A stretch of DNA of 64,000 bases from Choanephora cucurbitarum (lineage: Eukaryota > Mucoromycota > Mucoromycetes > Mucorales > Choanephoraceae): the NCBI GenBank assembly GCA_025331435.1, contig JAIWNI010000010.1:186001-250000 (forward strand), written 5' to 3'. The notes under the pieces were generated by a model, which saw only the letters and a program-made list of their open reading frames with translations, did not search any database and had not been told where the DNA came from. The position numbers were made by a program, and so were the translations under genes. Shown piece after piece: positions 44,817 through 49,203 of this stretch (positions are counted from its first letter, which is position 1; each line of letters starts with the position of its first letter).

Positions 44817-45220
<404 letters not shown>

Positions 45221-45226
45221 TGGTTT

Positions 45227-45398
45227 TGTAGAACACTACGTCCACTCCAATGTCCACTCCCTTCAGACATCCCTTTCCTTATTTGGGCTATGATTTGCTC
45301 ACTCCCTTTGGGCACCCTACCTAATTTCCTCGCCATGATAGTAGTAATCTTCCCCCCCCCCCATTTTCTGCTGTCCACTCCAACACTCCGTCCACTCT
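45227..45398 (+). repeat. Left terminal inverted repeat of the fold-back element
   Basis: Pairs with 45959-46129 on the other strand. GTCCACTC copies start at 45240, 45252, 45373 and 45390. It includes a C-run at about 45352-45362. Confidence 0.88.
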
Positions 45399-45465
45399 GT
45401 AGAATTCCAAATAAGTTGCGCAACAAACGGCTTCTATAAACGTTAATGAAAAAAACGTATGATAG

Positions 45466-45924
45466 TTGCAAAACTATTCATCTGCCTCATTAGCCCTAAA
45501 AGAAATGCCTCTAACACACTTATTTACTACAGAGTCTAATATATAATCTTGTCTATACTGGATGATTTGGTACTACACTGAGGGTGTTCGTCGTTATTTG
45601 ATTGAAAAAAAAAACCTAAATCTAAAGTGAAAGCACAAAGACTTTAAACATGTTCCTGGCATAAACCCACCCTTAACTTTTCTTCCTCTCAACTTACCAA
45701 AATCCAAGTCAAAGCCCGTTGCTATCCATTTTCAAAACGGTCATAATCTACACTGGTATGCTATCAGCCTAGGTGTCAATCAAAGCAATCTTCCTTCTGT
45801 TTATCATTATTTCTTTACGATTGATGGAAAAATAGAAGAGTACAACAATTATTGGAACAAATGGCGTCAATTTCCAAAGAGAAAAAGTCTCAAAACATCG
45901 CCTGAAATCATAACTTTAGAATAA
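45466..45924 (+). pseudogene. Degraded reading frame inside the fold-back element
   Basis: One frame reads through 45466-45924 with only TAA at 45544 and TGA at 45628 before its final TAA at 45922. The pieces look protein-like: ALKEMPLTHLFTTE, WMIWYYTEGVRRYLIEKK, then HVPGINPPLTFLPLNLPK, PVAIHFQNGHNLHWYAISLG, IDGKIEEYNNYWNKWRQFPK. The last, longest piece (97 codons) has no methionine, so it is not an independent gene. No frameshifts are needed, only point stops. I cannot name the family. It may be captured host sequence or what remains of the element's own gene. Confidence 0.5.
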
Positions 45925-45958
45925 ACAATATACTTACATCTTCATCAACAGCGAGAAT

Positions 45959-46129
45959 AGAGTGGACGGAGTGTTGGAGTGGACAGCAGAAAATGGGGGG
46001 GGGGAAGATTACTACTATCATGGCGAGGAAATTAGGTAGGGTGCCCGAAGGGAGTGAGCAAATCATAGCCCAAATAAGGAAAGGGATGTCTGAAGGGAGT
46101 GGACATTGGAGTGGACGTAGTGTTCCACA
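45959..46129 (-). repeat. Right terminal inverted repeat of the fold-back element
   Basis: Reverse complement of the left arm, with the matching G-run near 46000-46010. It ends at the TGGTTT candidate duplication. Confidence 0.88.
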
Positions 46130-46135
46130 TGGTTT

Positions 46136-46402
46136 TTTGATATGGTAAAAAGAAACCATCCTCACATTTGCTACAAATACTAAGACCTCAAATCTATTAG
46201 TAGCTATCAAACCATTCGAATATCACATCCTCCCTTTTGTAACCCAACAAAGAACTGATCTTAAAGTTATTTGATATATTTCCAAGAATCTTCAACAACT
46301 GAGGTAATGTGCTAGAAAAAAAGTTGCATGAATAATGTGTTCAATTTCTTAATATTTTATATTGATTTATTTTCTCTCTCTTCTTTCTTCCCATCTTCCT
46401 TT
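46136..46402. other. Short region between fold-back element and MLH1
   Basis: 267 bases. A 30-codon coding-like tail (includes NLLVAIKPFEYHILPFVTQQ) ends at a TGA near 46274 and lies outside the element. Otherwise AT-rich MLH1 leader. Confidence 0.35.
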
Positions 46403-49203
46403 ATGGCGAATATAAAAAAACTAGATCGAACTGTTGTTAGCAAGATAGCTGCTGGAGAGGTGGATTATACAAGATAAATAAACAAAAGCAATGATACTAA
46501 ATCTTTTGATTCTTTAAAAAAAAAAGACTATCCATTACCCTTACAACGTAGTTAAAGAGCTTATGGAAAACAGCTTAGATGCGGGTGCAACTTCTATCCG
46601 AATCTGTGCTTTATCAGGAGGTCTAAAGCTAATTAGGATCATAGATAATGGCCATGGCATTTCTGTAAGTTGAAATTACACACTTAGCTTCATTGCTAAC
46701 AACAAGCTCAAAAAGGAACAAGACCTTCAACTTGTCTGTGAACGACATGCAACCAGTAAAATTGAGCATTATCAAGATATCACCCAACTGACTACATTTG
46801 GGTTTCGTGGAGAGGCTATGGCTAGTATAGCCAATATCTCTGAAGTAACCATCACTTCTAAGGACATTAAATCTGAACAAGTCTTTCAGTAAGTAGACGA
46901 CACTAAGAAGATTCTCTTTCTTTTATGCACAAACTAACAAATTGATTTATTGACTGATTAAAGGATAGGATATAAATATGGTCAATTAGTAGGTTGGCCA
47001 AAGAGCTTAAAAGAAGAAAAATTAGTAGGCTGGCTTAAATCTCTACATACTGGAAATGGCACTGCTGTTTTAGTAAGATACAGTTCATTCACAATATAAC
47101 ATGTTGTTTTTACTTTGATCTATCATTACACTTTTTTTTTGTGTTAGGTTCAAAATCTATTTGACAACATGCCTTTGCGTAAGAAAGCGCTAAAGATTTC
47201 CCAAGAATCGCAAAAGATCACAGATTGCATACAGAAATATGCCATTCATAATGTACAAGCAACATTTGGTCTCTCCAAGGTCAAAAATCAACACTTTCAC
47301 ATGATGGTATTTGTGTTAACTTGTTTTTTTTTCTACAGGATGCTCAGTCAGAAACACTGTATTATCCCTTGGAGCCTATCAAAACTGAGCATGACCAAAG
47401 CAACAGTGTCGTTAAGAGGATCAAGGACATATATGGCTATGAGCCTAATACAATCAATCGAGTGAGCCATGAGCAAGAAAGATGGCGCTTTACGTTATAT
47501 TTCTCAGATGTTGACCGTTACAAGAACACAAAGCCAAATGTTTTTATTTTATTTGTCAATAGTAAGTAAACAAAGTAAAAAAAAAGGAGGGAGAGCCACT
47601 AAGGCGCAATTCAGATAGATTGGTAGAGAATGTAAAGATAAAGAAAGAAGTCAAACAAGTCTACACTATGAATGGAAACGGTGCAAAGGGTTCTATGTTT
47701 ACCTATATCGATATCACAGTAAATCCTAAGCATGTGGATGTCAATATACATCCTACAAAGAACCAAGTTCGCCTTTTGGAAGAAGATGCGATAATTGAAG
47801 CTTTAACAAAGCAGCTTCATGATGCAATCGCTCTAGGACCCTCTTGTGTCTCACCAAAAGCTCTCTGTCAACCAAAGTCAAGACGTTTATTATCTTCGCA
47901 AACAACACTTGATCAGTATTTTGTGGCACCTAAAATAAGTCCTAAAACATCAGATAGTGAAGAAAGTGACAACAGTCAATCAACAATTCCAAGCACTCCT
48001 ACCAATGGCTTTTCTCCAATTGATGTAAGCTAAAAGAAAAAGTTACTGCATATATTTTTGCCTATTGTTTTCCAAAAAAAAAATCATGATATAGGCTTCC
48101 TTCTTCAAGAAGCGAGTACAAAATCTTTCGTTTCCAGTAATTAGGAATCAAACTACACCAAGCGTTGATATACATCAATCATCTAACAATAGTAGTACTC
48201 TTGAGCAAGCTGCTGCTACAGACGATATGGCTCATGTAAAGAGAAAGAAAGCTAGGCTGACCCTTGCAACAAGACCCATACAGCCTCCTTCCAAACCCAA
48301 GAGAAGTACATTCAACCAAAACAAAACCATTCAAACACCTGAAAAGGAACAGTCTGATGAATTGGAAAGTATCCAGTTACTGCAAAAAGAAATCATTCAG
48401 TCAGAGGACAAACGTAAGTATTTCTATCTGCATAAAGATTAAGGGAAATGAGTTTAATAACATATGTTGATCTCAAAAAAAACAGAGCTTAGTAAGGTAA
48501 TATCTCACCATAAATGCATTGGTGTAATAGATGATGTTCTTTTGCTTGGTCAATACAAAAACGCTTTCTATATATTTCAATATCAAGTCTTGAGGTAAAT
48601 ACATCGATTAGTGTAGTATAGAAAGAGCAATAGCATACTCAACTTTTTTTTAGTGAGGAATATATATATCAACGCATCATTTATCAATTTCCTCAATTTG
48701 GAAAGCTAGTGCTATCGACACCTCTTAATATTATGCAATATCTTTCGAATTGTAAAGAATACGACCCTGATGATATACTTACTATCAACATGCCGATAAT
48801 CCTGGAGCATGCAGAGCTATTGTCGGAGTGTTTCAAGACTGAAATTGAAGTGAAAGAAGATCAGATTTATCTCAAAAGTCTCCCATTGTTCATAAATGAC
48901 TATATACCATCTTTCTTAATGGAGCGATTATCCGGATTCTTGTGTGACTTAAGTACACAGGTAGGTTGATCTTGGTTATCTATCTGTTAACCTTTTTTTT
49001 TTTACTGACAACACATTTAGATCAACTGGAAAGATGAAGTGGCTTGCCTACAAGGCTTAGCAGAGGCCTACGCTAAACTGTTTTACTGCTGCCATGAAGA
49101 TGATTGGAAATCATTGTCCAAATCAATGCAACAAGTTCAAGGCATTAAAGCACATCCTCATCTTATGCAGCATGGTTACGTGTTCAAAATGGATATCAAA
49201 TAA
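46403..49203 (+). CDS. MLH1: DNA mismatch repair protein MLH1-like (MutL homologue), atypical C-terminus
   Basis: Eleven exons: 46403-46459, 46527-46664, 46707-46888, 46964-47072, 47148-47279, 47339-47561, 47615-48024, 48095-48413, 48486-48594, 48654-48960, 49021-49203; 722 residues. MutL GHKL ATPase motifs are intact: [15 protein letters not shown] (Mg/ATP-binding Glu and Asn), IIDNGHGIS, and [15 protein letters not shown], followed by [19 protein letters not shown] and the transducer [18 protein letters not shown]. The C-terminal dimerisation domain starts near [16 protein letters not shown], in MLH1 style. The invariant MLH1 C-terminal FERC is absent: the frame ends GYVFKMDIK at TAA. Two junctions are weak: the GTGGAT donor at 46460 and the A-run acceptor at 46526. 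It partners with Pms1 in mismatch repair if functional. Confidence 0.88.

Follow-up and report, generated by a model that had tools for sequence, protein, structure and literature searches.

Evidence for a recently inserted, deletion-derived Mutator-like element in Choanephora cucurbitarum and for relatives whose transposase carries an OTU-like domain

Introduction

A 64-kb stretch of the Choanephora cucurbitarum genome (C2:186001-250000, hereafter the window) contains two long arms that are almost exact reverse complements of each other and lie close to a gene start. What kind of element is this, how did it arise, and can the likeness of its arms be read as a measure of its age? The best explanation, to which we assign a probability of about 0.93, is the recent insertion of a non-autonomous Mutator-like element (MULE), namely a 900-bp deletion derivative of a 4-kb parent that was moved in trans and is flanked by 8-bp duplications. 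Throughout the text, W denotes the window copy and C-numbers denote genome contigs (C35, C38 and so on); the genome searched comprises 33.4 Mb in 357 contigs.

Structure and Boundaries of the Window Element

Element W occupies positions 45228-46128 (901 bp), with arms of ~171 bp separated by about 561 bp. Its parts are the following:

45220-45227, no strand: left target-site duplication ATGGTTTT, 8 bp, an exact match to 46129-46136, with ends fixed by other copies
45228-45398, plus strand: left arm, terminal inverted repeat, with GTCCACTC at 45240, 45252, 45373, and 45390
45399-45652, plus strand: left part of the interior, derived from the 5' region of the parent, ahead of the transposase start
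45653-45658, plus strand: deletion junction with microhomology TTCCTG, from C247 against the window sequence
45653-45924, plus strand: 3' remnant of the transposase gene, the last ~88 residues of the OTU-like domain, including HWYAI; the same segment is present in C247 and C35
45959-46128, minus strand: right arm, terminal inverted repeat, with GAGTGGAC at 45960, 45977, 46097, and 46109
46129-46136, no strand: right target-site duplication ATGGTTTT, 8 bp, matching the left copy

The arms are reverse complements that differ by two substitutions and the length of one C-run. The longest exact inverted match in 45105-46700 is 78 nt, whereas none of 200 order-1 random sequences exceeded 16 nt, and the near-perfect inverted arms of ~172 bp reported by the first-pass annotation are thus borne out. 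The same is true of its subterminal repeats, four per arm: the left arm has four GTCCACTC sites and the right arm four of the complementary GAGTGGAC, so that all eight sites of the 64-kb window are located in the arms and the remainder of the window has none. The transposase remnant is open up to its stop codon, within a stop-to-stop frame at 45631-45924. A scan of the window with Rfam gave nothing at gathering scores, and a search of plasmid records gave no match.

The ends of W were set by arm matches to other copies, which start at base 8 and stop at base 908 of the first annotated interval used as a query, placing the ends at 45228 and 46128. Matches to whole copies reach 3 to 4 bases deeper into one flank (query bases 4-908 for C38 and 8-911 for C30). 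With these ends, the flanking duplication is 8 bp rather than 6 bp long.

A start codon is located at 46403, 274 bp downstream of the element end, and the presumed next exon (46554-46664) matches HATPase_c_3 at 27.6 bits (cut-off 25). The gene resembles MLH1, a likely DNA-repair gene, and the short distance to its start places the insertion in a likely promoter region. Elsewhere in the window, an uninterrupted (CT)n run of 110 bp (44992-45101) precedes the element, and an 812-aa frame, whose relatives have protein-kinase domains, is 70% identical to a protein of Blakeslea trispora and 60% to one of Gilbertella persicaria, which marks the host as mucoralean.

Copies and Relatives in the Genome

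The genome search with the first annotated interval returned 38 matching stretches. Besides W, the short form is represented by three further copies: C38 (C38:13581-14479) and C30 (C30:49899-50794), which are near-complete and have flanks different from those of W, and C328, which a Gypsy-type element interrupts and whose right arm is partly lost. The Gypsy-type element (L011:2289-7133, in the right arm) has gag, protease, RT, RNase H, and integrase domains and one open frame of 1615 aa. Long relatives with W-type arms are C35 (4009 bp, both ends present) and C247 (left end missing), and no further long copy with such arms was found among the best candidates of the genome searches. C303, which matches C35 over 311-2460, was tried as a long relative and rejected, its nearby inverted repeats being only four pairs (22-46 nt, 71-82%), none of the W arm type. 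A search of the arms against the whole genome had been the first check proposed from the sequence, and it revealed copies at unrelated sites with target-site duplications of their own.

The 27-base end sequence, allowing at most three mismatches, occurs at 16 sites in the genome (control, 0), and the looser motif CTACGTCCACT-N(1-14)-GTCCACT at 22 sites (reversed-pattern control, 0), grouped into 10 convergent pairs and two unpaired ends (C247 and C328). By this looser motif and DNA matches we recognized sister subfamilies (C46, C134, C57, C357, and the 3976-bp C116), in which the arms have diverged and the motif is the same, as well as smaller elements with such ends (C311, C130, and C329). 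The arms measure about 171 bp in W, 116 bp in C35, and 130-177 bp in the sister copies.

Several observations concern the surroundings of individual relatives. C130 (L016:2673-3039) and C329 (L017:3100-3472) are elements of ~350 bp whose flanks, compared without gaps, agree at 172/200 (left) and 104/200 (right) positions, so the surrounding region seems to be duplicated. The sequence directly outside C57 (element start, L074:115) includes, at L074:92-111, a short copy of this end in reversed orientation, as if two ends stood back to back. The C247 copy adjoins a mobile-element-like gene cluster (L009:1-1320 and L009:6219-6614) with an NDC10_II/GCR1_C protein, presumably Crypton-like, and a PIF1-like helicase fragment.

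Target-Site Duplications and Empty Sites

In the 10 copies with both ends, the flanks were compared for perfect repeats 5 to 11 bp long. Five of them have a perfect 8-bp repeat, specifically W (ATGGTTTT), C38 (TATTTTTC), C46 (GCAAATTA), C134 (TCTATTTA), and C357 (AAAGAAAA). C116 matches at 7 of 8 positions, C30 is perfect at 7 bp, and C35, C328, and C57 show no duplication at 5 to 11 bp. None of the 10 copies is perfect at 5, 6, 9, 10, or 11 bp, and the best of 90 mispaired flank pairs used as a control reached 6 of 8. The 6-bp duplication TGGTTT proposed by the first-pass annotation is indeed present on both flanks of W, but only as part of the 8-bp duplication. MULE target duplications are given as 8-11 bp in the available text of the Mutator catalogue (PMC6446971), and six of the 10 copies fall in this range (five perfect, one at 7/8), with 7 bp in one copy and none in three.

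The C30 copy is located within a repeat family (flanks in L013; L078-L081) that has more than 10 other places in the genome, with 40 of 51 candidates scored. Four relatives of this host repeat lacking the element were compared: C57 and C24 read TTCTTTGTTGAAG uninterrupted, C44 reads TTCTTTGTTAAAG, and C279 is more diverged. The C30 element itself has TTGTTGA on both sides, and ~80 bp just past the insertion site are missing in C30. The paralogous empty sites confirm the C30 insertion. For the W site, flank matches elsewhere in the genome extend at most 20 bases beyond the element, giving no empty paralogue; for C38, no empty site was found in the genome, where query bases 8-269 matched one other place besides the element.

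The Parental Element and Its Transposase

A transposase gene is located between the matching arms of C35. Its 362-aa frame, with the first ATG at C35 position ~519, matches the Pfam models FAR1 (29.5 bits, cut-off 28.1) and MULE PF10551 (58.3 bits, cut-off 27.6), and a 293-aa frame of C247 matches PF10551 at 58.6 bits (cut-off 27.6). C35 is therefore a full-length relative, of the kind that the first-pass annotation had suggested looking for, that shares the arms and encodes a (broken) MULE transposase. Further frames of C35 and C247 contain a C-x-C...C-x-H stretch that resembles a SWIM finger by eye, as well as a C-terminal domain. In the second subfamily, C116 has a PF10551 match between arms of W type. 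Six frames taken from C35, C247, and their relative C148 matched the Pfam models MULE, FAR1, ZSWIM1-3 RNaseH-like, Mutator, and, below threshold, Peptidase_C65, and none for hAT or P; in NCBIfam, no model exceeded its cut-off among the matches listed (the best 25 of 27 for one protein).

Both C35 and C247 are broken by stops and frame changes or frameshifts, some of which may be introns. With both long copies broken and no other one found among the best candidates, the enzyme that moved the young copies may have come from an element that is lost, unassembled, or endowed with diverged arms. A search for a full-length transposase, for which C247 was pieced into one read-through, yielded no match at E 1e-5 among 6039 candidates, a null result that is weak owing to the broken query. 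The last exon of C247 alone retrieved five relatives, which points to the weakness of the pieced query rather than to absence. In UniRef the one named relative, itself from Choanephora cucurbitarum, carries the label 'OTU domain-containing', and NCBI lists it as 'hypothetical protein'.

Origin of the Short Form

The left part of the short form corresponds to the beginning of the parental element: C2:231300-231666, which includes part of the arm, matches C35 positions 28-378 at 90%. From parental position ~370 the window sequence jumps straight to the OTU end. At the junction, the parental C247 has GTTCCTGAG at the left site and CTTCCTGGT at the right one, the window reads GTTCCTGGC, and the three share TTCCTG, a 6-bp microhomology. 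These alignments indicate a single internal deletion as the source of the short form: ~3.2 kb between two TTCCTG sites was lost across the microhomology, leaving a derivative of roughly 900 bp with both arms and the OTU tail. The deletion junction is common to all four short copies (W, C38, C30, and C328), which argues for one lineage; three of them (W, C38, and C30) have both ends intact. Short elements of the sister subfamilies have other breakpoints, C57 and C357 keeping a FAR1-side region and C46 and C134 the OTU region.

Age and Arm Homogenization

Pairwise comparison of the W, C38, and C30 interiors (564, 564, and 563 bases) shows no substitution and one step in the length of an A-run, so that all substitutions among these copies fall in the arms. 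The invariant interiors indicate recent movement, and on sequence grounds this supports a recent insertion of W. The first-pass annotation had drawn the same conclusion from the near identity of the arms; the young age stands, but the arms are not good evidence for it, since in part of the group the arms are homogenized within a copy.

Between W and the C38 and C30 copies, three arm columns, two of them adjacent, are changed in both arms at mirrored places, perhaps by two events, and one more column is changed in one arm only. The same 45-bp unit is missing from the left and the right arm of C35. A further case is given by C57 and C357, a pair with apparently one and the same deletion junction. 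The two have diverged at 127 of the 641 interior bases compared (20%), whereas the arms within each copy differ at only 2 of 135 and 0 of 130 positions (98.5-100% match), and thus arm similarity alone cannot serve as a clock. Between these two copies, 13 of the 15 variable arm columns are changed in both arms, two in one arm, and none by side. In C30, a terminal A/G difference is swapped between the ends relative to W and C38, from which we infer that its interior was flipped by recombination between the arms. Homogenization is not universal: the outer 116 bp of the C46 arms are identical, the inner parts are side-specific in both C46 and C134, and the C134 arms differ in repeat units. The C116 arms have 21 differences over about 175 positions.

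The OTU-like Domain and MULE-OTU Fusions

The C-terminal domain of the transposase has D-G-N-C and H-W motifs. Residues D67, C70, and H199 are invariant in six of six aligned sequences from two diverged groups and follow the pattern of D-x-x-C plus a downstream His; by analogy, they may be the catalytic residues. A profile of the six sequences (A2) matches OTU domain-containing protein 5, OTUD5 (3tmo), at E 8e-5, and a smaller profile (A1) gave no match in PDB. The best Pfam score for Peptidase_C65 is 16.5 bits, below the cut-off of 24.3; in Pfam, the frames of the C279 and C47 relatives matched no OTU family; and an AlphaFold model of the domain from five sequences is poor (pLDDT 39). We refer to the domain as OTU-like.

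In the best-candidate lists, an OTU-like match is located at most 3.5 kb downstream on the same strand at 37 of 87 PF10551 places, two of the 37 being overlapping matches at one C344 locus, and none of the 87 has such a match upstream or on the opposite strand. Among places with at least 40 bits in the same lists, the fraction is 31 of 51. Both parts are found in single open frames of C279 (980 aa), C246 (1006 aa), and C337 (993 aa), as judged from the two match lists; the C279 frame was also read directly, in two overlapping stretches.

Tentatively, and with somewhat less than even confidence, we propose that these fusions (37 of 87 MULE places; single open frames of about 980-1006 aa) represent an undescribed lineage of Mutator-type transposases with a C-terminal OTU-like, possibly deubiquitinating, domain, together with elements that often keep their long arms identical by repeated arm-to-arm copying, in which case arm identity would report copying and not age. 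A 2006 survey reportedly may describe fusions of this type. Among the matches listed from partly accessible open-access literature, none describes a MULE transposase with an OTU domain, which does not establish its absence from print. The words OTU, protease, peptidase, and ULP are absent from the available text of the Mutator catalogue (PMC6446971) and from the 2026 arthropod MULE survey (PMC13359780), and in PMC6875170 OTU stands for operational taxonomic unit.

Discussion

The first-pass annotation had classified the feature as a fold-back transposon. This describes its shape well, but by the transposase of its full-length relatives it is a non-autonomous Mutator-like element, and it is this transposase that assigns W to the MULEs. 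Besides the transposase of an arm-sharing full-length relative, the 8-bp duplication and the long terminal inverted repeats agree with this assignment. The proposed history begins with a 4-kb parent that would have combined the same arms with one transposase, comprising a FAR1-type DNA-binding region, the MULE catalytic domain, a SWIM-like motif, and the C-terminal OTU-like domain. After the internal deletion, the derivative would have spread to other sites by transposase supplied in trans, which would recognize the arms, probably through the GTCCACTC repeats. The element would be cut out and inserted at staggered cuts, producing the observed 8-bp target duplications. The arms of one copy would then tend to stay alike by exchange or copying, a pattern seen in some copies, with gene conversion or template switching during repair as possible routes.

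Two other accounts of the structure were weighed against this one. The long, repeat-rich arms are similar to those of Galileo-type fold-back elements, and 8 bp is also the usual duplication length for hAT and P elements. Both traits would suit a fold-back element or MITE of the hAT or P/Galileo type that holds a MULE fragment by chance, yet we consider such an origin very unlikely: C35 carries the arms at its ends and the FAR1-MULE transposase gene between them, C116 has its PF10551 match between arms of the same type, and, apart from the nested Gypsy in C328, no other transposase gene lies between such arms in the elements examined. Near-perfect palindromic arms can also come from fold-back replication or misassembly, and the locus could in principle be a non-mobile chromosomal inverted duplication, either a hairpin locus or an assembly fold-over. 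The 900-bp structure recurs, however, in intact form at two other sites, where the flanks differ and each copy has a duplication of its own (8 bp in C38, 7 bp in C30), and once more in interrupted form, and C30 has paralogous empty sites; copies elsewhere, target duplications, and empty sites together refute this account, to which we give practically no weight.

With the Mutator-like reading retained, it may be asked whether the near identity of the arms reflects nothing but a recent insertion from a symmetric founder, with no arm-to-arm exchange, as the first reading implied. W, C38, and C30 are young and little time has passed, the inner arm parts of C46 and C134 are side-specific, and the C134 arms differ in their repeat units, all of which agrees with this view. 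The mirrored arm columns of W, the 45-bp unit missing from both arms of C35, and above all the paired arm changes of C57 and C357 over strongly diverged interiors make it improbable, and we favor exchange between the arms in part of the group. In such families, similarity between the ends of a DNA transposon should not serve as an age estimate.

W belongs to a new family of a known kind, the MULEs, and its value lies in a clear deletion-derivative history. It is an ordinary, albeit well-documented, non-autonomous MULE, and the MULE-OTU fusion is the more interesting part, arm homogenization being the other aspect of broader interest. One of the closest known systems is MULE-Mucorales, group 5 of the Mutator catalogue (PMC6446971), which in the available text is the sole MULE group listed for Mucorales and is given 10-bp duplications, 40-bp repeats, and no other motif. 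The family described here likewise has a MULE transposase in Mucoromycota, a SWIM-like finger, and terminal inverted repeats; it is set apart, by description only, by its 8-bp duplications, arms of about 116-171 bp, and the C-terminal OTU-like domain. The Tm1 Mutator/fold-back family of root-knot nematodes (PMC3169594) is similar in its fold-back-like composite repeats, MULE transposase, and combination of transposase-encoding and short non-autonomous members. As far as the accessible part of that report goes, Tm1 differs in its Phantom-type FLYWCH transposase, in duplications that are mostly 9 bp long, and in an average arm identity of 93.15%, and the word OTU is absent.

According to the accessible part of PMC2836005, Ginger1 resembles the fusion in that an OTU or Ulp1 protease domain is found at the C terminus of its transposase and differs in that its transposase is of the integrase-type DDE kind, not MULE; OTU domains are also reported there for some Helitrons, and Ulp1 for Mutator elements. 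With the OTU pairing thus known in other transposon classes, its presence in MULEs would suggest that ubiquitin removal helps several unrelated kinds of transposase. Finally, the behavior of the arms has a counterpart in the ISWpi1 inversions (PMC3004938), for which the available text describes recombination or conversion between the ends of one element that yields identical ends and a flipped interior; ISWpi1 is a bacterial insertion sequence with 23-bp ends, whereas here the arms of 116-171 bp belong to a eukaryotic MULE.
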